From positions 1 to 51,182 of the forward strand of contig LVBB01000146.1 of NCBI GenBank assembly GCA_001603075.1: a DNA stretch of 51,182 nucleotides, written 5' to 3'. Source of the DNA: Phycisphaerales bacterium Planc_01. Its GTDB lineage: Bacteria; Planctomycetota; Phycisphaerae; Sedimentisphaerales; Anaerobacaceae. The position numbers and the translations under genes were made by a program. Shown piece after piece: positions 22,379-33,344 of the stretch; position 1 is the first letter of the stretch; each line of letters opens with the position of its first letter. The notes beneath the pieces are model-generated. The model ran no database searches, was not told the DNA's origin, and saw nothing but the letters and a program-made list of their open reading frames with translations.

Positions 22379-24109
22379 TTAGATGAGTCGTTCCAGGATA
22401 TCCAGGCCGTCCATTTCGTTGAGACTCTTGCCCGCCGGGACCATCGGCCAGACGTTTTCCTCGGCCTCGACCTGGAAATCCACCACGCAGGGTCGCTTCT
22501 CCGCAAGCATCTGCTCGATAACCTCAGGCACGTCTTCCTTCTTGTCGACGGTGATCCCTGCAGCGCCCATGGCGCGGGCGACGGCGGCATAGTCGGGGTT
22601 CTTCAGATAGCTGCACGCATAGCGTCGACCGTAGAACAGCTCCTGCCACTGGCGGACCATGCCCATGTAGCCGTTGTTCATCAGGCAGACCTTGATCGGC
22701 AGCTCATACTGCACAGCGGTGGCCAACTCCGTCAGTGTCATATTGAAACTGTGGTCGCCGTCGATGTCGATGACGGTGGCGTCCGGCCTGGCGATCTGGG
22801 CGCCGATGGCCGCCGGCAGGCCAAAGCCCATCGTGCCGAGCCCGCCGGAGGTGATGAACTGGCGAGGCCTGGTGAACCGGTAGAACTGCGCCGCCCACAT
22901 CTGGTGCTGACCGACGCCCGTGGCGACGATCGCATCACTGTTCGTCTGGCGGCACACTTCTTCGATGATGTACTGGGGCTTGATCCGGCCCGCGTTGCCG
23001 TCATACTTGAACGGGAACTTCTTCTTCCACTCGGCGATCCGGGCGAACCACGCCTCTCGCGGCCGATACTCGACCTCCTTGGCCAGTTCCGCCAGGATGT
23101 GCCGGGCGTCGCCGACGACGGGGATGTCGACGTGAACGTTCTTGGAGATGCTGGCCGGATCGATGTCGATGTGGACGATCTTGGCATTCGGCGCAAACGT
23201 GCTGAGCTTGCCCGTAACGCGGTCGTCGAACCGGGCCCCGACCGCGATCAGCAGGTCGGATTCCTGGACCGCATAATTGGCGTAGGCCGAGCCGTGCATG
23301 CCGAGCATGTCCAGCGATTCCGGGCGCCGCTGGTCGATGCTCCCCAGCCCAAGAAGCGTCATCGTCACGGGCAGATGCGCCTTCTCGGCCAGCGCGCGCA
23401 GCTCCTCGGCGGCATTGGCGATGATGACCCCGCCTCCGACGTACAGGACGGGCCGCTCCGATCTATTGATCGCCTCAGCCGCGGTCGAGATCTGTCGGGC
23501 ATGTCCCTTGGCGCGAATCTTGTATCCCGGAAGGTTGATCTCCGCCCTTCCGTCGCCCTGGTACTTGCTGACCTCCACATCGACGGGCAGATCGATCAAC
23601 ACGGGGCCGGGCCGGCCGGTTGAGGCGATGTGGAACGCCTCGCGAACCGTGCGTTCGAGGTCCTTGACGTCCTTGACGATGCTGTTGTGCTTGGTGATCG
23701 GCCGGGTGATCCCCGTGGTGTCGGCCTCCTGGAACGCGTCGTTGCCGATCAGCTCCGTACGAACCTGTCCGGTGAGAGCGACCATAGGAATCGAGTCCAT
23801 CATCGCCGTGGCCAGGCCGGTGACCAGGTTGCACGCCCCGGGCCCGCTCGTGGCCAGGACCACACCCACCTTGCCGCTGGCGCGGGCGTAGGCGTCGGCC
23901 ATGTGGCAGCCCCCCTGCTCGTGGCGCGGGACAATGAATCGGATCGGGGCGTCATAGAGACGGTCGAACAGCGGCAGGACCACACCGCCGGTGTAGCCGA
24001 ACATGACCTCGACTCCGAGATCGAGGAGCGTATCGACGATGATCTGGGCGCCGGTCCTCTCCGGCAGGCCCTCGGCGGCTGGGGCCGAATCACGTGAATT
24101 CGATGGCAT
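22379..24109 (-). CDS. ilvB: Acetolactate synthase large (catalytic) subunit
   Basis: A 576-residue ThDP enzyme for the first step of valine and leucine (acetolactate) and isoleucine (acetohydroxybutyrate) synthesis. Visible parts: GYTGGVVLPLFDRL (38-51), the catalytic glutamate in RHEQGG (E64), the FAD-binding middle domain (VGARFDDRVTG), and the ThDP-Mg site GDHSFNMTLTEL followed about 15 residues on by LMNN. All are intact. The start ATG 24109 has AAAGGAG. It is adjacent to the small subunit gene and is the more conventional of the two large subunits. Confidence 0.95.
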   Translation of the reverse strand: MPSNSRDSAPAAEGLPERTGAQIIVDTLLDLGVEVMFGYTGGVVLPLFDRLYDAPIRFIVPRHEQGGCHMADAYARASGKVGVVLATSGPGACNLVTGLATAMMDSIPMVALTGQVRTELIGNDAFQEADTTGITRPITKHNSIVKDVKDLERTVREAFHIASTGRPGPVLIDLPVDVEVSKYQGDGRAEINLPGYKIRAKGHARQISTAAEAINRSERPVLYVGGGVIIANAAEELRALAEKAHLPVTMTLLGLGSIDQRRPESLDMLGMHGSAYANYAVQESDLLIAVGARFDDRVTGKLSTFAPNAKIVHIDIDPASISKNVHVDIPVVGDARHILAELAKEVEYRPREAWFARIAEWKKKFPFKYDGNAGRIKPQYIIEEVCRQTNSDAIVATGVGQHQMWAAQFYRFTRPRQFITSGGLGTMGFGLPAAIGAQIARPDATVIDIDGDHSFNMTLTELATAVQYELPIKVCLMNNGYMGMVRQWQELFYGRRYACSYLKNPDYAAVARAMGAAGITVDKKEDVPEVIEQMLAEKRPCVVDFQVEAEENVWPMVPAGKSLNEMDGLDILERLI

Positions 24110-24235: not shown

Positions 24236-25966
24236 CTACATGGCACTCTCAAGCATTCGCAGCCCTTCCATTTCGTGGAGGCCTTTGCCCGTCGGCACCA
24301 TTGGCCAGACATTCTCATGGGCCTCGACGTGAAAATCAACAAGACACGGCCTTTTCTCGGCAAGCATTTGGTCGATAGCGCTCCCGACATCGGCCTTGGC
24401 GTCCACGCCGATGCCGACGGCGCCGACCGCTCGCGCATACGCGGCGTAGTCAGGGTTCTTCACGTGGCTATGAACGTATCGCCGATCGTAAAACAGCTCC
24501 TGCCACTGGCGCACCATACCCATGGTGCCGTTGTTGAGGATACATATCTTGATCGGAAGCTCGGCCTGGACGGCCGTCGAAAGCTCCGACAGCGTCATAT
24601 TGAAGCTGTGGTCGCCGTCGATATCGATGACCGTCGCATCGGGTCGGGCCAGTTGGGCGCCGATGGCCGCCGGCAGGCCGAAACCCATCGTGCCCAGCCC
24701 ACCCGATGTAATCAACTGCCGGGCCCGGCGGAACCTGTAGAACTGGGCGGTCCACATCTGGTGCTGGCCGACGCCGGTCGTGATGATCGCATCGCCATTC
24801 GTCCGCCGACACAGTTCCTCAATGATGTATTGCGGCTTGATTCCGCTGGCGGTACGGTCGAAATCGAGGGCGCACGCGGTCTTCCATTGTGCGATCTGCG
24901 CGAACCACGCCGCCCTTTCACGGCGTTCGACGTGCCGGGTCAGTTGCCGCAGAACAGCCCTGGCATCGCCGACGATGGGAATGTCTACACGAACGTTCTT
25001 GGCGATGCTGGCCGCATCGATGTCGATGTGAATCACCCGGGCCTTGGGAGCGAAGCTCTTCAGATCGCCGGTAACACGGTCGTCGAATCGGGCCCCGACG
25101 GCGATCAGCAGATCGCATTCCTGAACCGCATAGTTGGCATATGCGGTCCCGTGCATGCCGAGCATATCCAGCGACTCGGGCCAATTCTGGTCGTAGCTGC
25201 CCAGTCCCATCAGTGTCATCGCGACGGGCAGGTGGGCCCTTTGCGCCAGCTCGCGCAGCTCACCGGCGGCGTTGCCGCTGACGACCCCCCCGCCGGCCAG
25301 CAACACGGGACGGTGGGCGCGATTGATTTCCTCGGCCGCACGGGCGATCTGGGCCGCATGGGCGCTGGAACGAACGTTGTACCCGCGCAAAGCGATCCCT
25401 GTGGGATTGACGGATGGGCACGCGGCGAACTCCAAATCCACCGGCAGATCGATCAGGACAGGCCCGGGCCGGCCTGTCGAGGCGATGTGAAAGGCCTCGT
25501 GGAGCGTCCCGGCCAGGTCCTCAACACGCTTGACGATGTAATTGTGCTTCGTGACCGGACGCGTGATCCCCACCATCGGGGCTTCCTGGAAGGCGTCGCC
25601 ACCGATCAGGTCGGTGCGGACCTGCCCCGTGATGGCCACAAGCGGGACCGAATCCATCATCGCCGTGGCCAGACCCGTAACGAGATTGCAGGCGCCAGGA
25701 CCGCTGGTGGCGATAACAACGCCCGTCTTACCACTGGCACGGGCGTAGGCATCGGCCATGTGGCAACCCCCCTGCTCGTGGCAGGGCACGACGAAGCGGA
25801 TCGGGGCCTCGTAGAGCCGATCGAAAAGAGGCAGTACCGAGGCGCCGATGTAGCCGAAGACCGTGTCGACACCGTGCGCAAGTAGAGCATCAACAACGAT
25901 TTGAGCGCCGGTCCGATAGCGTGGGGGTGCGGCCGCTCCGGCAGCGGAGAGGTGATCCGATGGCAT
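24236..25966 (-). CDS. ilvB: Second acetolactate synthase large subunit (diverged paralog)
   Basis: Also 576 residues and alignable with the ilvB copy at 22379-24109 over its whole length, with large blocks identical (HEQGGCHMADAYARASGK, GPGACNLVTGLATAMMDS). It keeps E64, VGARFDDRVTG and the GDHSFNM...NN ThDP-Mg site, so it should be catalytic. Near the thiazole pocket the ilvB copy has TGG at 40-42 but this one has IGA, the most visible active-site difference. It comes first in the operon with its own strong promoter. It may be an isozyme of different substrate preference (2-ketobutyrate versus pyruvate) or regulation. Both copies have a 126-base gap between them with no gene. Confidence 0.92.
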   Translation of the reverse strand: MPSDHLSAAGAAAPPRYRTGAQIVVDALLAHGVDTVFGYIGASVLPLFDRLYEAPIRFVVPCHEQGGCHMADAYARASGKTGVVIATSGPGACNLVTGLATAMMDSVPLVAITGQVRTDLIGGDAFQEAPMVGITRPVTKHNYIVKRVEDLAGTLHEAFHIASTGRPGPVLIDLPVDLEFAACPSVNPTGIALRGYNVRSSAHAAQIARAAEEINRAHRPVLLAGGGVVSGNAAGELRELAQRAHLPVAMTLMGLGSYDQNWPESLDMLGMHGTAYANYAVQECDLLIAVGARFDDRVTGDLKSFAPKARVIHIDIDAASIAKNVRVDIPIVGDARAVLRQLTRHVERRERAAWFAQIAQWKTACALDFDRTASGIKPQYIIEELCRRTNGDAIITTGVGQHQMWTAQFYRFRRARQLITSGGLGTMGFGLPAAIGAQLARPDATVIDIDGDHSFNMTLSELSTAVQAELPIKICILNNGTMGMVRQWQELFYDRRYVHSHVKNPDYAAYARAVGAVGIGVDAKADVGSAIDQMLAEKRPCLVDFHVEAHENVWPMVPTGKGLHEMEGLRMLESAM

Positions 25967-26220: not shown

Positions 26221-26383
26221 GCTCTTTTGTGATGGAGGGAACAAATTTGGGCATTTTCACTCATGTGCATGTAAGAGCCAGGACGATGCTAAGGCCAACG
26301 ATACGGCGGTCATAAGGCGCCCCGCATCGCACTGTGAAACGGAAGGCTCGGGCGTCTTCCGGAAGGCAATCAGAGCCCTTGGC

Positions 26384-26411
26384 TTGCCATCTGCGAGCCA
26401 TATGCTATAAT
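26384..26411 (+). promoter_or_regulatory. Promoter of the sigma/anti-sigma operon
   Basis: TTGCCA (26384-26389) and a perfect TATAAT (26406-26411) are 16 bases apart. It points at the ECF sigma gene. This is a housekeeping-type promoter, not an ECF-type one, so I see no evidence of autoregulation here. Confidence 0.65.
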
Positions 26412-26468
26412 AGCCGGTGTGGTTCAGATGCGTTTGTTTTCGTCATGGGCAGGGGCCCCCGGAGCAGG

Positions 26469-27014
26469 ATGGCAGTGATAGGATTCGGTCAAGACGACAG
26501 GACCGACAGGAAGGCGGTTGATGCGGCCTCGGCCGTGTTTCGCGAACACGGCGCATTCATCCGGACCACCATCCGTTTTCAGGCCGGTAGCGAGTTTCAG
26601 GAGGACGAACTGGTACAGCAACTCTTCCTGTCCCTTGTAAACGCTCCCATTCCCGAAGACGTCAGGAACGTCAGAAACTACCTCTACCGAGCGATTGCCA
26701 ACGATATCATGGATTCGGTCCGACGGAAGGCCCGCCAGCGGAAACATTTTCGGAAATTTGCAGAAGAATTTCGGATTTCCATCCACAGACAGGCACCGGC
26801 GGACGCCCTTATCGGCGAAGAAGACAGTGATGCGGCGTTCGCATGTCTGACCCGGCAGTTGGGCAGGAGAGAGGCAGAAGCTGTCAAGTTGAGATATCAG
26901 GATGATCGCAGTACTCCGGAGATCGCCCATATCATGGGCGTTGACAGGCGGACGGTGAGCCGGTATTTGGCCGCCGCATTGAGTCAGTTGAGGAGAATCC
27001 TGGCGATTGAATGA
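26469..27014 (+). CDS. RNA polymerase ECF sigma factor
   Basis: A 181-residue sigma factor. Region 2 is visible as AASAVFREHGAFIRTTI, EDELVQQLFLSLVNAPI and NYLYRAIANDIMDSVRRK. Region 4 is LGRREAEAVKLRYQDDRSTPE followed by IAHIMGVDRRTVSRYLAAAL, a helix-turn-helix. The best start is ATG 26469 (GGAG just upstream); ATG 26445 would add eight residues. The gene is directly followed by the large anti-sigma gene (3 bases after the stop), so the pair is co-transcribed and almost certainly a regulatory couple. The target genes are not visible from sequence, but the nearby C39-like and pseudopilin genes are candidates. Confidence 0.9.
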   Translation: MAVIGFGQDDRTDRKAVDAASAVFREHGAFIRTTIRFQAGSEFQEDELVQQLFLSLVNAPIPEDVRNVRNYLYRAIANDIMDSVRRKARQRKHFRKFAEEFRISIHRQAPADALIGEEDSDAAFACLTRQLGRREAEAVKLRYQDDRSTPEIAHIMGVDRRTVSRYLAAALSQLRRILAIE

Positions 27015-27017
27015 GGG

Positions 27018-28667
27018 ATGGGGATGGTTGCATTCGATGGAAGCGAATCCTGCCACGAAGCGGAAGTGTACTACCATGATTCTGTCGAGGATCCCACCGG
27101 TTCGTCCATTCCGGCGTCGGTGAGAGCTCACATCGACAGTTGCTTCCACTGCCGCCGACGGATACAGACGCTCCGGGAAGCCCTCCGCGAGCTGGACAGC
27201 CGGCCTGAGTCGGCGCTCCCGGAGAAAGACCTGCAGCTCATTGCGGAGTTGCAGTCGCACTTCGAGCACCTCGATGAGCCGCTGGCCTGTAGGAGTGTCA
27301 AACCATTCCTCTGCGATCTTCTGTCCCCATCCATGAGGATCCGAATCCCCACTCCCGTGACCGTCCACGTGGATCGATGCGCCTCGTGTTCAAACGATCT
27401 CGACTCGCTCAGACAACTGACGCTCGGGGCCGACCAGTTGGCCCGTCTGGGTCGCCTGTACCGGGAGAGCCCAAACGACGACCCGAGTGCCTGCCTGACG
27501 GAGTCCCAGATGGATGCTGCTTCGTCTGCACACTTCGAAGACATGGCGTCCGGCGTCCTCGACCATCTGTGCGTCTGCCCGCGCTGCCGTCGCGACGTAT
27601 ACGAGCGTCGCCGGAACCTGCTGGCCCGTGTCGGCGGGGGGTCGGCCCCGACGCGATCCCTCCGTTGCGAACACATCTCGATGGCCGATCTGTTCGACTG
27701 TGTTGTTCCCTATGGCCTGCAGCTCGAGTTCTTCCGGACGGCCCGCCAACGGGCCCTCTGCGAACACGTGCGCTCCTGCCCCGCATGCCTTGAGAGAATG
27801 CAGCAGATTCATCACACCGTTTTTCAGATCGCCGAGCGTGCCGATTCCGGCGTGGTCACCATCTATTCGACGGACGGCCTTGGCGGAACGACGCCGGGGA
27901 CAGCCTTGCCAACCTCTGGCCGAGCCTATCCCATCAACGTACGGGTCGAGCGGCATAGCCGCCGAATCGCCGGCCGTCTGATGCATCGCCTGGGTGGACC
28001 AGCCGTCAGGCCGCTGGCCAGGGCCGCCTTCCTCGTGGCCGCAATGATCCCCCTGGCGATCCTGTTCGTCGTCAGCGTGCCCTCGGCGTCGGGTCTGAGT
28101 GTCCGCCAGGTCGATCAGATCCTCGGCAGGGCCAAAACGGTGCACATCTCGGTGTTTCGCGAGGGCCAGAGCGAGCCATTCCGCCAGTTGTGGATCTCCC
28201 GGAACAAGGGAGTGGTCATCTCACAGATGGGATCGGAGAGCCGGATCTATGACCTGCCAAACCGTCGCGCGACGGTGGTCCGTCCCGACCCCGGGACCGT
28301 CGAGCATACAGATCTGAACAGGTCCGATCTGGACGCTGTCGAACGTTCGATGCGCCGCATTCTGGAGTCGTCGCTGCTCGATGCACCGCTGGATGCCGAG
28401 TTGAGCCGTCAGCCGGAGTCCTCCGGGCCGGCACATGCCCGGCTTGACGTGTATGAGATGACCTGGAATCGTTTGTCCGACCTGCGCGCCCCGCTGCCGG
28501 GCAAGTTCAGAGTCTACGTCGATCCCATTACGAGACTGCCCCAGCGACATGAGTTGTTCTCGTGGGTCCCCGCCATAAACGACTGGCACGTGCAGACGAG
28601 CCTGTATGAGTACCCGCAGGACGACGAAATCGAGGCACGTCGGCGGACGCTGCTGCCGCTGAAGTAG
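27018..28667 (+). CDS. Anti-sigma factor with four ZAS-type zinc motifs and a periplasmic sensor domain
   Basis: A 549-residue membrane protein. The cytoplasmic half has four HxxxCxxC motifs: H38-C42-C45, H117-C121-C124, H183-C187-C190 and H250-C254-C257. Each is preceded by a cysteine (C12, C91, C159, C217) 24-33 residues upstream, as in the zinc-binding anti-sigma (ZAS) pattern. One membrane span lies at about 333-355 (RPLARAAFLVAAMIPLAILFV). The C-terminal 190 residues (TVHISVFREGQSEPF, then VYVDPITRLPQRHELFSW) resemble the LolA/RseB-like beta fold that senses lipids or envelope stress. It follows the sigma gene with no gap and would hold it at the membrane. Four ZAS units in one chain is unusual. 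ATG 27024 is an alternative start. Confidence 0.8.
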   Translation: MGMVAFDGSESCHEAEVYYHDSVEDPTGSSIPASVRAHIDSCFHCRRRIQTLREALRELDSRPESALPEKDLQLIAELQSHFEHLDEPLACRSVKPFLCDLLSPSMRIRIPTPVTVHVDRCASCSNDLDSLRQLTLGADQLARLGRLYRESPNDDPSACLTESQMDAASSAHFEDMASGVLDHLCVCPRCRRDVYERRRNLLARVGGGSAPTRSLRCEHISMADLFDCVVPYGLQLEFFRTARQRALCEHVRSCPACLERMQQIHHTVFQIAERADSGVVTIYSTDGLGGTTPGTALPTSGRAYPINVRVERHSRRIAGRLMHRLGGPAVRPLARAAFLVAAMIPLAILFVVSVPSASGLSVRQVDQILGRAKTVHISVFREGQSEPFRQLWISRNKGVVISQMGSESRIYDLPNRRATVVRPDPGTVEHTDLNRSDLDAVERSMRRILESSLLDAPLDAELSRQPESSGPAHARLDVYEMTWNRLSDLRAPLPGKFRVYVDPITRLPQRHELFSWVPAINDWHVQTSLYEYPQDDEIEARRRTLLPLK

Positions 28668-28674
28668 TCCGATT

Positions 28675-29493
28675 CTACCTGGGCTCCCACAGAGGCGTCC
28701 GATTGTGGTATGTCGGCTCGTCCGCTTCGCCCATCGTTTCCACGCGCAGGGCTTCGGCCTTCATGCGATCGACATGCCCATCGGCGAATCCGACGTTGAC
28801 GGTCTTGTTCGGGTGCCGGCCGCCGATGGCGTCGTCGATCTGTCCCGGCAGCAGTTCCTTCTCCCTGTTGATCGCAAGACCCGGGATATACGCCGTGCCG
28901 ATCGCCAGGGCGCCGGAGTAACGATGGGGAGGCTGCGTCGTCACATCCCACCAGCAAATGAGGGCATAGCCGCTGTCCACGAGCAAGACCGTCGCTCCCG
29001 GTTGACGGATCGTGCTCGTGGACAACGGCGGCCCCAAAAACTCCCGCTTGTAGGGACTCACGTCGGCGGCGCTTCGACACAAGGACCGGTTGACGCCGTA
29101 GTTGCCGCAGAGGACGCTCCGCGACAACCCCGGTGCTGCAATACGCCGTGAAGGGCACTCCAGTATCTTCCTGTCACGTAAAGACTGGTGGCGAACGGCG
29201 CCGATGAAGTCGGGCCAATACCACCCGGGCAGATCGTAAGCCGCGTCGCTGAGGTAGCCGCTCGGCGGGTTCGAACGCATCGCCCAGATACCATAGGGCA
29301 AGGTTTCATGTTCCGCTTCATATTGATGGAACTGGATCGCCAGGTCACGAATATGGGCCTGGCAGACCGTCGCCCTGGCCTGTTCGCGTGCGCTATGCAG
29401 CACCGGAAAGAGCAGTGCCGCCAACAACGTGATGACAGCAATCACGACGATCAGCTCGACGAGCGTGAAGGCTCTGGGTCTCATGGTCCGCAT
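28675..29493 (-). CDS. Pseudopilin with prepilin signal and H-x-DG C-terminal motif
   Basis: A 272-residue protein beginning with a prepilin cleavage/methylation segment (RPRAFTLVELIVVIAVITLL). It has the planctomycete-type C-terminal signature HPNKTVNVGFADGHVDR, a DUF1559-like H-x10-DG. A peptidase (PilD type) would cleave after the short basic leader and the protein would enter a pilus-like or type II secretion fibre. Starts at ATG 29493 or 29484 are both possible and lack a strong ribosome binding site. It ends 7 bases from the convergent anti-sigma gene and may be expressed separately. Confidence 0.85.
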   Translation of the reverse strand: MRTMRPRAFTLVELIVVIAVITLLAALLFPVLHSAREQARATVCQAHIRDLAIQFHQYEAEHETLPYGIWAMRSNPPSGYLSDAAYDLPGWYWPDFIGAVRHQSLRDRKILECPSRRIAAPGLSRSVLCGNYGVNRSLCRSAADVSPYKREFLGPPLSTSTIRQPGATVLLVDSGYALICWWDVTTQPPHRYSGALAIGTAYIPGLAINREKELLPGQIDDAIGGRHPNKTVNVGFADGHVDRMKAEALRVETMGEADEPTYHNRTPLWEPR

Positions 29494-29603
29494 TGTAGGC
29501 TCAGCCGCCTCTGCGTCAATCGGCGTTCGCAGTGGTACCATCGGACGTCATCCGCCCCCATGCCCCACGAACACACCAAACACTGGCTTCCGGCTCATCC
29601 CGC

Positions 29604-31406
29604 TCAGCGACATGCGCTCATGGCGTACCAATCCCATACACCGGTCACCAGGCATCTTATGATGAGCGGGTCATAGTAGCAGTCCGTTCCTGCCATCCGA
29701 GCGTACAGACCGGTCGTACAGGTCCCGTCGGGAGCGGGCTCGCAACCCCACCGTTCGAAATACCACTGGAAGTACCCGAAGCAGCCCCACCCGTCGGGGG
29801 CATCGGTGCAGGGGATGATCCACTCATCCTGCAGCAGCAGCGTGCAGCTCCAGCCGTCGCCGCCTGCGATACGACGCAAGACGCCCTCAGGTACATCGGC
29901 GAACGGTCCTTCGATAGGCTCATTGGACAGCAGCAGAGCGACCCCGTCCGACCAGTCCGTCGCCACGAAGCCTCTGTCCTTGCGACAGTAGAACCTGTCA
30001 TCGGCCAGGTCAACGATCCAGGCATAGCGATCGTCGACGCGATCGAGCACCACGAAATGCTCCTGTCCCGGCAGATGCAGAATCGCCTGGCAACCGGACA
30101 ACGCCTCAAGGGTGGCCAAGTCGGTCTGTACAACACGGCAATGCAGACCGAGGCTCTGGGCGCCTCGTTTCAGGTCGTGCATCGTCGTGCGTCCATCCGA
30201 CCCGACCATCTGCGTCAGCCTGGTCGCCGGCGCAACTCTGCCCAACTGCGTCGCGGCGTATTGCAGCGAGGCGGTGGCGCAGTTCTGAGGGCGCTTGCCC
30301 TGCTCGGCCACATAAGCCAGTCGCTCGGCCAGGAGCAGGTCCGCATCGACCGCGTTGGAGTGGTGGTACACCAGGGCCCTGGCAGACATCGTCGAGTAGT
30401 ACTCCACCGATGTATCGGCGCCGAACGAAACGCTGAACCTCTCCGCACCCGGAACGGCCGCATCAACAGCGGTGTAATCCCACTTGTCTGAACACAGCAG
30501 GCGATTCGTGAAGGCATCGTACTGTTCGATCACGACCGTGGTGGGCACCCAATAGCCCCCGATCCGGCGGTATCCCGAGCAGTAGGTGGATGTCAACGTG
30601 TTGTTACCTCCGGGCAACGTATGGGCGGCCGCTGCCAGATCCTTCGAAGGGTCCAGCAAGAACGTCATCTCCGAACCGCCGGCAGGCTCAACGGTCAGCT
30701 CGATCTGAGTGGTCCCGTCGCGGACAATCTCGGTGGCCGAAACCTTCGCGGCGACCAGGTTCGCATACGACAGCAGGCCCCGGCCCCAGGGGATGACGCC
30801 GGCCGTCAACGGCCCGGTGACCGCCCGAGGCAGCCGGTCGCTCGTATCCACGATGGCCCCGCCGGCCGAGACCGCATAGATCGTATACTTCTGTCCATCC
30901 CACGCGAACACCCGGCGATCGTTCCAGCTCCTGTTGAAGTAGTTGACCATGGCGTTGCCCGCCAGATCGGCCGACGGCGTGACCGAATCGCTTCGCGACG
31001 AGATCGCGACCTCCCAGTAAAACCTTGTACCATCATACCTTAGCACAACCGACGAGGTCATGCTCGACTCGTTGGACAGCTCGTAACGCACGTTGAACGG
31101 GATCGCGTCGAGGTACATCTTCTGCAGTTCAAGCGTCCGCTCTGACTTGTCGGTCCTGCTCTGGTACTCACGAATCTCCTGCTCGATCCTCTCGGTGATC
31201 GACGAAGCATCCGTGGTCCTGGCGGCCCTGTACTGCTGGTGTTTGGCTTCGATGGTACCGGCTGGAATCCAGGTCTGCCGGCCCGTGCTCGTGAGTTTCT
31301 CGATGACCTCGAGCACCTCGGCCCTATCCAGGGATCTCTGGGCGTTGACTGGAGCGACCACACACACCGCCAGCAACGCGACGGCTGCAACTTTGCCTAC
31401 CTTCAT
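29604..31406 (-). CDS. Exported C39-like cysteine peptidase with cysteine-rich tail
   Basis: A 600-residue secreted protein (signal peptide about 1-22, cleavage after VNA). Residues about 95-340 resemble a LolA/RseB-like beta-sandwich (RYDGTRFYWEVAISS, FAWDGQKYTIYAV, GYRRIGGYWVPTTVVIE). Residues 370-500 match a C39 peptidase domain: RPQNCATASLQYAATQLGR (C376), GQEHFVVLDRVDDRYAW (H450), IVDLADD (D466), giving a C-H-D triad. The tail from 515 has eight cysteines (521, 533, 542, 555, 563, 576, 585, 599), enough for four disulfides. C39 domains usually sit on ABC exporters and trim bacteriocin leaders; here it is free and secreted. ATG 31406 has AAGGAGG. Activity is inferred. Confidence 0.75.
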   Translation of the reverse strand: MKVGKVAAVALLAVCVVAPVNAQRSLDRAEVLEVIEKLTSTGRQTWIPAGTIEAKHQQYRAARTTDASSITERIEQEIREYQSRTDKSERTLELQKMYLDAIPFNVRYELSNESSMTSSVVLRYDGTRFYWEVAISSRSDSVTPSADLAGNAMVNYFNRSWNDRRVFAWDGQKYTIYAVSAGGAIVDTSDRLPRAVTGPLTAGVIPWGRGLLSYANLVAAKVSATEIVRDGTTQIELTVEPAGGSEMTFLLDPSKDLAAAAHTLPGGNNTLTSTYCSGYRRIGGYWVPTTVVIEQYDAFTNRLLCSDKWDYTAVDAAVPGAERFSVSFGADTSVEYYSTMSARALVYHHSNAVDADLLLAERLAYVAEQGKRPQNCATASLQYAATQLGRVAPATRLTQMVGSDGRTTMHDLKRGAQSLGLHCRVVQTDLATLEALSGCQAILHLPGQEHFVVLDRVDDRYAWIVDLADDRFYCRKDRGFVATDWSDGVALLLSNEPIEGPFADVPEGVLRRIAGGDGWSCTLLLQDEWIIPCTDAPDGWGCFGYFQWYFERWGCEPAPDGTCTTGLYARMAGTDCYYDPLIIRCLVTGVWDWYAMSACR

Positions 31407-31606
31407 AGCTTACCTCCTTGTGGAAAAGTGTTTTGGCCGGAGAACATACGCGGCTCGGCGAAAGCGGGCCCGGTGCAGACATCACCTCAGACCGCCCCAT
31501 GTTTAGGCGCACCTCAGACCGCAGATGTGGATGGAATTTCTGAAAATGTGAAAAAAAAGAGGCGCCGTCATGCTTCTTCATGGATCGGGCGAGGCGGGAG
31601 AACGGA

Positions 31607-32512
31607 CTACGGCATGGCATCGGCGGCGCCGGGATCAGGCTCAGGCCGCACGGCTTCGGTTCGTTCGAGCCAGTATTCGCAGAAGAGCGACAGGTCATGA
31701 ACATCGATCCGGTCATCGTCGTTCAAGTCGGTTGCCATCGGTGTGTTCGGGTCTGAAACGAAGGTCTCCCCCCAAAGACCGGCCAGCACAGCGAAATCTA
31801 CAAAGTCAACAAGGCTGTCGGCATGGTAGTCACGAGACGCAACATGATGGAAAGAAAGAACTTGGATCAAATCCGCCTCGAATGGCGGGGGATCGCCGGG
31901 ATCGTAGGGATTCGGCTCGGTCACGACGTCGATGCTCGGCGTGTAGCTGTACAATCCGACGCTGCATGTCCCAGCGGCTTTGGCATGGTAGTCCAGAACG
32001 AACCAAGGGCCGGCAACCGCGTCCGGGAACGCAAGCAGTTGAAATGACAGGCCACTCACATCGGCGGCGGCTGTGACCAAGGCGCCTGTGCCCGCCGCCG
32101 GAAGACACGAACCTTCGTAGGCGAAGAAAGGGGGATCCGTATTGTCGCCCCTCGCCGAGACGATCCCCGTGTCCATGTTCGCCCGTGAAAGCCACAATGC
32201 ACCGTTCCAACGCAATGCAGTATCAGATGTTACGTAAATCACCAGGCGGGTTCCCACCATGATGTCCCGATACACATTGGGTACGTTCGGATCGGCCAGA
32301 GCCAATGGCGTCGCCTGATCGGACAGGTAGACGGAAGCCGAAACCCCCGCAGCGACGGTCGAGCCAAGAAGCCCCGCCAGAACCAGCGAAGCAGCGGCGA
32401 TCAGACGCGGGCTGATTCGAGCCGCACGGCCCCCGCCCCAAGCACGCAGGCTGCAACCACGCATCTGGCAGCCGACGCATCGCACCAAACCGTCCCTTTC
32501 TGTAACTCGCAT
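31607..32512 (-). CDS. Secreted dockerin-tailed protein
   Basis: A 301-residue exported protein. The hydrophobic signal segment (RLIAAASLVLAGLLGSTVAAG) begins about 37 residues in if ATG 32512 is used; ATG 32464 gives a more normal length. The middle has beta-rich text (VYLSDQATPLALADPNVPNVY, LRWNGALWLSR) resembling a cohesin/adhesin-like fold. The end carries two dockerin-type calcium loops: HADSLVDFVDFAVLAGLW and DLNDDDRIDVHDLSLFCEYW. It may bind a cohesin partner on the cell surface. A near-consensus promoter lies 6-7 bases from ATG 32512. Confidence 0.7.
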   Translation of the reverse strand: MRVTERDGLVRCVGCQMRGCSLRAWGGGRAARISPRLIAAASLVLAGLLGSTVAAGVSASVYLSDQATPLALADPNVPNVYRDIMVGTRLVIYVTSDTALRWNGALWLSRANMDTGIVSARGDNTDPPFFAYEGSCLPAAGTGALVTAAADVSGLSFQLLAFPDAVAGPWFVLDYHAKAAGTCSVGLYSYTPSIDVVTEPNPYDPGDPPPFEADLIQVLSFHHVASRDYHADSLVDFVDFAVLAGLWGETFVSDPNTPMATDLNDDDRIDVHDLSLFCEYWLERTEAVRPEPDPGAADAMP

Positions 32513-32688: not shown

Positions 32689-32883
32689 CTATCGATGCAA
32701 CAGGGATTGTCTTCGCCTGACGAAGTGCGGGCAGGTGTCATCGGCCCATGTGAACAGGCCCTCCATCCTGCCCTGGTCGGCGTCGGTCCCGGTCGCCCAT
32801 GCACAGTGGCCCCAGGTGGGTTTCTCGATACATGTTCGAGCCGGCGAGAAATACCGGCACCCTTCGCATTGTTGATCCACCAT
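32689..32883 (-). CDS. Small cysteine-rich protein
   Basis: A 64-residue frame from ATG 32883 (GGATGG upstream). It reads CEGCRYFSPARTCIEKPTWG, then HC, and later GLFTWADDTCPHFV. The spacing of CxxC, the TWGHC and WADDTCPHF pieces look like a zinc- or metal-binding mini-protein of a kind I have seen in anaerobic bacteria, but I cannot name it. The frame is open back to 33075, though the extension seems non-coding. It lies upstream of the dockerin gene on the same strand. Real translation is likely but unproven. Confidence 0.5.
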   Translation of the reverse strand: MVDQQCEGCRYFSPARTCIEKPTWGHCAWATGTDADQGRMEGLFTWADDTCPHFVRRRQSLLHR

Positions 32884-33344
32884 CTCAATCCATCCGTTCC
32901 ACGAAGGCGGCGTTTTGCCGTCTCCAAAATCCGCCAAAGACAAACGGACACCTTCGCCGTTCGTAACCATGAGGCGACGATGGACAGACGAATGTGGATG
33001 AGAAAATCTCGTTGCGGCTTGGTTTTCCTGGCGATGCGCGCAAAAAAAGAGGGAGACAGCGACCCCCCTTGGCATAGATACCCGGTCTGCCGCCCCCCCT
33101 GGAAAAGAAGGAAGGAGTATTATGAGCGAGTTTCCTCGATCTCAGGCTTTTACTACCCCTTACACCCAAAGTATAGCTCAGCTTTGGACCGAGGCAAAAA
33201 CGGCAGGAAGATTCTCGCCTTGGTTTCCGATGGGTCCGACCGGGTGGGACCGCCGGGACAATTGCCGCTTGTGGCGCGGAAATCGATCCACTATGATCGC
33301 GCGACGACAACGACCGTCGCCAAAGATCCGAATGAGGACTGCAG
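32884..33344. other. Intergenic region between small Cys protein and antiporter
   Basis: No gene supported. It should carry the promoter of the antiporter gene (plus strand), but I found no convincing box. A hairpin with A/T-run lies at 33042-33070. No riboswitch consensus (for example a c-di-AMP element) was recognised. Confidence 0.45.
33042..33070 (-). terminator. Terminator-like hairpin with T-run on minus strand
   Basis: On the minus strand a stem of AGGGGGG and TCCCTCT (two G-T pairs) around an 8-base loop is followed by seven T. No gene ends just upstream on that strand, so it may be a remnant, or an attenuator upstream of the small cysteine-rich gene. Confidence 0.3.

Follow-up and report, generated by a model that had tools for sequence, protein, structure and literature searches.

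The gene at positions 27018 to 28667 on the forward strand of the window, the 51,182-nucleotide stretch of the Phycisphaerales bacterium Planc_01 genome that was analysed, encodes a predicted multi-unit zinc-type anti-sigma factor of 549 aa. It is a known kind of anti-sigma factor in a modular, multi-unit form for which no description was found in the open-licence literature. The overall account towards which the evidence leans is that of a membrane-anchored class I anti-sigma factor with tandem-duplicated zinc modules, in which unit 2 would clamp the sigma factor, a periplasmic domain would act as the sensor, and a C39-peptidase gene would be the output.

Four HxxxCxxC motifs are present in the protein, at residues 38, 117, 183, and 250. 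Each has a partner cysteine on its N-terminal side (Cys12, Cys91, Cys159, and Cys217, at distances of 26, 26, 24, and 33 residues), and all four ligand sets are CHCC. The sequence-only reading of this DNA had described these motifs, with partner cysteines 24-33 residues upstream, and had placed behind them one membrane span and a LolA/RseB-like outside domain, in a gene directly following an ECF sigma gene; each of these points was borne out. When the 549 aa sequence was shuffled 20,000 times, no shuffle had more than two of the motifs and 2 shuffles had two. The usual layout of zinc-binding anti-sigma (ZAS) proteins is one anti-sigma domain per protein, from which the window protein departs with its four CHCC units.

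Unit 1 covers residues 10-61 (27045-27200; ligands C12, H38, C42, and C45) and unit 2 covers residues 91-149 (27288-27464; C91, H117, C121, and C124), the latter, which is the best conserved of the four, being made up of a core and a trailing helix at residues 138-149. Unit 3 follows at residues 158-205 (27489-27632; C159, H183, C187, and C190) and unit 4 at residues 217-273 (27666-27836; C217, H250, C254, and C257), all on the forward strand. The true start of the protein may be the methionine at 27024, because the alignment of close relatives begins there. A single membrane span is likely at residues 332-352 (28011-28073, forward strand), where the sequence is hydrophobic and a helix is predicted, with pLDDT <50 there. 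Residues 356-549 (28083-28664, forward strand) form the outer domain, which is predicted by Foldseek and VIA-align to be LolA/LprG/RseB-like. Its top Foldseek match is a LolA (E 2.3e-4), and VIA-align gave Z 10.6 against 4mxt (172 residues, rmsd 4.7), 8.7 against RseB (2v43), and 7.0 against MucB (6in8). The 5.65 Mb genome sequence (162 contigs) contains a single match to the anti-sigma protein at E <=1.

The ECF sigma factor encoded immediately upstream (26445-27014, forward strand) is 189 aa from the ATG at 26445, matches TIGR02937 at 2.1e-20, and has sigma regions 2 and 4 (PF04542 and PF08281). Only 3 nt lie between the end of its reading frame at 27014 and the anti-sigma ATG at 27018. In the ORF list the sigma frame starts at 26334, which is upstream of a promoter-like site, and the ATG at 26445 was taken instead. 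This site, of sigma-70 type, was read in the sequence as TTGCCA-16 nt-TATAAT at 26384-26411 on the forward strand and would serve the sigma/anti-sigma operon. TATAAT is the commonest hexamer 5' of the sigma gene, being found in 46 of 82 non-redundant regions, and the window copy is at 26406-26411. There is one close copy of the sigma gene in the genome, which has five further sigma matches, none better than E 1.5e-5. The idea of several sigma paralogues as titration targets was rejected on this count.

In profile-profile comparisons unit 1 is related to units 2, 3, and 4 at E 2e-8 to 4e-7. The comparisons of unit 1 with each of units 2, 3, and 4, and of unit 2 with unit 3, each scored above 40 out of 40 column shuffles that kept the ligands, while for units 2-4 and units 3-4 the observed score was reached by 1 of the 40. 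With the ligands masked the matches between units weaken to E 0.005-0.48; the ligand pattern therefore carries much of the signal. Control segments from the C-terminal part had no match to the units (E 0.28 or more). These sequence comparisons show the four units to be homologous, at any rate through unit 1. They have diverged from one another, yet each keeps a signature of its own, which in unit 4 includes FD and PYG residues.

The proposal that the units are of ZAS type is moderately supported by comparison with curated families. Among members of the unit alignments, the Pfam family zf-HC2 was matched by 3 of 19 for unit 1 and 6 of 12 for unit 3 (best E 2.2e-6), coming first for both, and by 2 of 22 for unit 2 and 2 of 15 for unit 4, where it tied for first; the matches are weak except for unit 3. 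When ten relatives were scanned whole against zf-HC2, one (L063) was above the cut-off, at 23.9 against 22.2 bits; its best stretch is in unit 3 and no stretch passes alone. The window protein is below the cut-offs of all the curated families (zf-HC2 and the RsrA models). Its best match to an anti-sigma model is that of unit 1 to TIGR03988 RsrA, at 9.4e-4 and below cut-off. A match to the Pfam family Neuropep_like (E 0.0076, below cut-off) was taken as chance. Against the PDB, unit 3 had only two matches, RsiW at E 0.021 and 3hug at E 0.042, the latter listed as a membrane protein and which we take to be RslA. For unit 4, RsiW, ChrR, and 3hug were among the weak matches, and nothing useful was found in the PDB for units 1 and 2.

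A model of the N-terminal part (residues 3-286; pLDDT 89, pTM 0.73) places the HxxxC histidine of every unit within a helix and the final cysteine close to the beginning of the following helix. The partner cysteine is inside the first helix in units 1 and 2 and just before it in units 3 and 4. For units 1 and 2 the model predicts a three-helix core with a separate trailing helix, as in ZAS domains, and units 3 and 4 consist of a core without one. A fold search with the 284-residue model recovered no known fold: Foldseek reached E 0.84 at best, and VIA reached Z 3.7. This null result for a predicted structure is best regarded as uninformative and not as evidence against ZAS. ZAS membership is well supported by the motif and its context and moderately by the profiles, and is not supported by fold.

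The unit-2 profile matches 90 and the unit-1 profile 86 of 161 genomes of the order (Phycisphaerae). In a sample of the phylum the unit-2 profile matches 17 of 392 genomes, 8 of them from the same order and the other 9 weak (E 7.6e-8 to 9.7e-5). The 39 named loci, from GTDB genomes, are in metagenome-assembled genomes; 38 are labelled Planctomycetota, Planctomycetes, planctomycete, Phycisphaerae, Phycisphaerales, Sedimentisphaerales, or Anaerohalosphaeraceae, and the remaining one 'uncultured bacterium'.

A census of 98 genes was made, from which G017:C683, two short fragments (G125:C308 and G147:C545), and L162, which has a single unit, were left out. Of the 98 genes, 90 have a sigma-like gene directly beside them; with L168 and L169 set aside as doubtful, the figure is 88 of 96. 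The lack of a sigma gene at one copy (L017/L048) is probably due simply to its contig, which stops 156 nt short of the frame. The CHCC ligand columns are intact in 89 of the 98 genes for unit 1, 98 for unit 2, 50 for unit 3, and 53 for unit 4; the complete figure for unit 2 is partly a matter of selection, unit 2 being the search profile. In 49 unique relatives, unit 2 is CHCC in all 49 and unit 1 in 46.

The four-unit layout was looked for in related genomes and found to be common. Among 90 complete census frames, which leave out frames cut by contig ends and L020 (broken into two frames) and include L168 and L169, 41 have exactly four full units, 15 have three, 31 have two, and 3 have one. 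Homologues thus mostly keep two to four units and not a single motif. The one-unit frames are L168, L169, and L124, the last without an adjacent sigma gene. L168 and L169 (231 aa, with a unit-2-like TPVxEH signature and an adjacent sigma gene) were considered as the smallest family members and rejected. They have no LolA-like domain and their ECF gene is distant (E 3e-6 and 2e-5), and therefore they are no longer counted for unit 2; they are probably ordinary one-unit anti-sigma factors.

A tree was built from 88 complete members of the 98-gene census, using the shared columns of units 1 and 2 and the C-terminal part, and was rooted at its midpoint. Parsimony places units 1, 3, and 4 at the root. 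This suggests, provisionally because several deep nodes have low support, that the four-unit array is ancestral. Unit 3 changes 13 times on the tree, against a mean of 29 with shuffled labels, and unit 4 changes ten times, against a mean of 26. The two-unit L093, L100, and L102 nest beside the four-unit L091, L023 nests beside L129, and L127 beside L014. As judged from the sequences, units 3 and 4 have been lost repeatedly and together, as whole modules, with the sigma gene kept.

Gain of units is also seen. One frame (L060, contig MHYA01000191.1), which runs off its contig, has seven motifs. Its units 5, 6, and 7 score best against its own units 2, 3, and 4, at 31, 31, and 38% identity, which argues that its order of 1-2-3-4-2-3-4 is an old block duplication and not an assembly repeat. 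The number of units beside a sigma gene ranges from two to seven. Whole units that come and go beside a conserved sigma gene offer a direct comparison of what one unit adds.

In class I anti-sigma factors, according to passages of PMC7406223, helix 4 contacts sigma region 2 and helix 1 contacts region 4. Covariation was measured in 88 sigma/anti-sigma pairs (Neff 79), with units 3 and 4 outside the test. For the helix behind unit 2 (residues 134-150), the top 200 pairs gave an enrichment with sigma of 2.01 +/- 0.31 and with the periplasmic control of 1.09 +/- 0.28, each over 12 subsamples. Unit 2 itself gave 1.36 +/- 0.21 with sigma versus 1.13 +/- 0.13 with the control, and unit 1 was low with both (0.65 and 0.65). 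In the top 50 pairs the helix at 134-150 is also raised in the control (1.82, versus 2.43 with sigma), and the strongest single pairs with sigma involve P305, F82, and P32, not unit 2. This small, weak covariation test and the constancy of unit 2 suggest that unit 2 and the helix behind it (138-149) probably clamp sigma, and they would do so in the way that helices 1 and 4 of known anti-sigma domains do. Unit 1 is normally present and may help to hold sigma.

That unit 1 is the clamp in place of unit 2 is rather doubtful. It is unit 1 that gives the best, below cut-off, anti-sigma model match of the window protein, and in one clade of five copies without a sigma gene (L095, L101, L103, L110, and L124 in the census; L042, L056, L054, L057, and L067 as named loci) unit 2 is kept and four of the five have broken unit-1 ligands. 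In the remaining copy these read HHCC, a set still able to bind zinc, and the three copies of the clade that are on the tree are monophyletic (support 0.997). However, unit 1 persists in L111 and L147, which also have no adjacent sigma gene, is missing from the sigma-coupled L021 and L148 (both of a single genus), and had no covariation excess with sigma.

Downstream of the anti-sigma gene, and convergent with it, is a gene for a pseudopilin-like protein (DUF1559, N_methyl; 28675-29541, reverse strand). It is present in 28 of the 39 named loci, or 24 of the 31 that have at least 1 kb downstream. It is followed by a gene on the reverse strand at 29604-31406 for a secreted C39-peptidase protein with a Cys-rich tail (PF03412, 2.3e-12), which is found in 21 of the 39 named loci and in 20 of the 28 with at least 2.7 kb downstream. 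No homology was found between the N-terminal part of this protein and the LolA-like domain. A dockerin-like secreted protein (31607-32512, reverse strand; Dockerin_1 E 0.006, below cut-off) is encoded next and is present in 17 of the 39. Six named loci with room downstream have neither the pilin nor the C39 gene (L040, L048, L050, L052, L055, and L058). In genomes G106 and G108, the pilin/C39 cluster adjoins the copy that has no sigma gene (L056 and L042) and not the sigma-coupled copy (L055 and L052), and in the L056 and L042 clusters the dockerin-like gene is turned round.

A predicted ECF-type promoter of the C39 gene, TCCACAT-N15-CGCCT, is at 31505-31531 on the reverse strand. Its core, ACAT-N15-CGCC, resembles ECF promoters and was picked by eye from a count in which other base pairs scored equally high. 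In the discovery set, 13 of 19 loci have it 5' of the C39 gene at 7 or more of 8 bases and 8 have it exactly (shuffles 12% and 0.7%); the 13 include L042, which has no sigma gene and whose match is far from the start codon and is reached by 10% of shuffles. Without L042 and L067, both lacking sigma, the motif is present in 12 of 17. A follow-up set of 29 loci contained 10 new loci of family f1, 6 of family f7, 1 without sigma, 8 on contigs that, judged by their length, belong to the discovery set and so not new, and 4 without a C39 ORF. The motif is exact in 7 of the ten further f1 loci (shuffles 0.1%); some of the ten are congeneric with each other or with loci of the discovery set. It is absent before the C39 gene in all 6 of the f7 loci, though sigma is adjacent there, and the three loci without sigma that were examined (L042, L067, and L205) have no convincing match before C39. 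It is not enriched before the pilin gene (3 of 23) or the dockerin-like gene (0 of 13).

The longer pattern TCCACAT-N15-CGCCT occurs at nine sites in the whole genome, against two for control patterns; it was built from the window's own site, so that the match before the window C39 gene is by construction, and one of the other eight sites is also within the window, a second promoter-like copy at 32972-32998 on the reverse strand. The conserved motif before the C39 gene leads to the prediction that this gene is a target of sigma in family f1, and not in f7, and provides a testable output. Autoregulation of the sigma gene through ACAT-N15-CGCC was rejected. Only 9 of 86 regions upstream of it reach 7 of 8 bases, which is about the shuffle rate (7.6%, 12%), and the motif is therefore not enriched; the TATAAT box is common there instead.

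The favoured account may be put together as follows. The cytoplasmic side of the anti-sigma factor would have been expanded by tandem duplication of a zinc module. Unit 2 and its helix would hold sigma, and units 3 and 4 would be accessory modules, stabilised by zinc, that either brace the cytoplasmic region or have another binding partner, the zinc sites being mainly structural. The LolA/RseB-like domain might sense a hydrophobic or envelope signal, upon which the anti-sigma factor would be lost, probably by regulated proteolysis, and sigma freed. The freed sigma is predicted from the motif to transcribe the adjacent C39-peptidase gene in family f1, and the sigma operon itself would be driven by an ordinary sigma-70-type promoter.

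A tentative alternative is that sigma is held by unit 2, with unit 1, and that units 3 and 4 bind different partners. Candidates, put forward just as tentatively, are a protease adaptor, a further sigma factor, or a component of the neighbouring secretion machinery. The retention by each diverged unit of its own signature, as in unit 4, would fit this, as would the common occurrence of pilin and C39 neighbours and the intact unit-3 ligands in 4 of the 5 copies of the clade without sigma. Against it, units 3 and 4 have no known partner and are missing from many lineages. It is possible, and no more probable than this alternative, that the protein is a modular hub in which one unit holds sigma, the duplicated units recruit specific partners of other kinds, and a change in the number of modules, from two to seven beside a sigma gene, rewires the envelope or secretion events coupled to one ECF regulon. 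Should this be true, it would to our knowledge be the first anti-sigma family with a module that evolves by tandem block duplication and deletion.

The sequence-only reading had gone on to suggest a multivalent or redox-graded sigma trap, and this part of it was not supported. A redox- or zinc-graded sensor, with stepwise loss of zinc from the units releasing sigma in steps, is unlikely. All four ligand sets of the window protein are complete, and the CxxC motifs are like those of the redox-sensitive ZAS proteins RsrA and RslA described in passages of PMC2877774. However, a separate LolA/RseB-like domain is present, passages of PMC7406223 suggest structural zinc for membrane-bound class I anti-sigma factors, and relatives with a sigma gene alongside have anywhere from two to seven units. 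In addition, L072-L076, five paralogues that share the outer domain and lie directly behind an ECF gene, are devoid of zinc units. That each unit binds one sigma, with one protein titrating up to four, is very improbable: the four units have intact ligands, unit 1 is homologous to the other three, and units 1 and 2 both have a trailing helix like anti-sigma helix 4, but the genome has one close sigma copy (no other ECF match is better than E 1.5e-5), several losses of units 3 and 4 left the sigma gene in place, these two units lack a separate trailing helix in the model, and the excess covariation with sigma is at the trailing helix of unit 2 and not at unit 1, units 3 and 4 being outside that test.

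No description of tandem or multiple zinc anti-sigma domains was recognised among the matches listed from the open-licence literature, and no open-licence paper was found that brings together Phycisphaerae, anti-sigma factors, and ECF sigma factors. The family resembles RsrA, RslA, ChrR, and RsiW (zf-HC2, PF13490) in having HxxxCxxC with a fourth ligand about 25 residues upstream, a predicted helical core, and an ECF neighbour. The ligand spacing of RslA, with His25 and His50, is given in passages of PMC2877774. The family differs from these proteins in having four tandem units (two to seven in sigma-coupled relatives) and not one, in the IPTPITVH signature of unit 2, and in that the window sequence is below the curated cut-offs. 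Passages of PMC7406223 suggest a possible structural role for zinc in the membrane-bound members of class I, and treat its structural or sensory role in anti-sigma domains as an open point.

The likeness to RseA/RseB and MucA/MucB is in an outer domain of LolA/RseB fold within a sigma/anti-sigma operon. Here, in contrast, the anti-sigma chain itself contains the RseB-like domain, and this domain matches the fold of LolA/LprG at least as well. The zinc-less, ECF-linked paralogues L072-L076 are also alike, with a similar LolA-like domain behind a hydrophobic stretch and the ECF gene directly upstream. They are about 300 aa, however, with a short cytoplasmic part and no HxxxCxxC, and their ECF factor is less similar (E 7e-11 to 2e-13 against the sigma profile).

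Copies of the anti-sigma gene without an adjoining sigma gene were found in the related loci L042, L056, and L067 and among the orphans in the 98-gene census. The ligands of unit 1, the first of the zinc units, are mostly broken in these copies. C39-peptidase and dockerin-like genes are close to them, joined in L042 and L056 by the pilin gene. For this sigma-less group, no clear match to the ECF motif was identified 5' of the C39 gene.

The C39-peptidase protein encoded in the window (29604-31406, reverse strand) has a cysteine-rich C-terminal tail of approximately 80 residues, preceded by an LxxIxGG-like motif and containing about eight conserved cysteines, as counted by eye in the alignment. 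It is possible that this peptidase releases its own cysteine-rich peptide. The promoter-like motif that precedes the C39 gene (TCCACAT-N15-CGCCT) recurs without mismatch at 32972-32998 on the reverse strand; this second site lies within a small cysteine-containing ORF (32689-33075, reverse strand) and is immediately followed by an in-frame ATG.

The window also contains two similar, tandem 576 aa ORFs on the reverse strand (22379-24109 and 24236-25966), which resemble acetolactate synthase large subunits. A matching ORF pair is also present in L031, L032, L033, and L055. A regulator that has HTH and WYL-like sequences is found immediately 5' of the anti-sigma gene in L111, and another such regulator between two sigma genes in L060 (2027-2977, reverse strand).

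Paralogues of approximately 300 aa in L072 to L076 have a LolA-like domain similar to that of the anti-sigma protein and no HxxxCxxC motif; the ECF gene immediately 5' of each is less similar to the sigma profile of the anti-sigma family. L168 and L169, with an adjoining but distantly related ECF gene, encode anti-sigma-like proteins of 231 aa with a single unit, the TPVxEH signature of which resembles unit 2. These may hint at the origin of unit 2.
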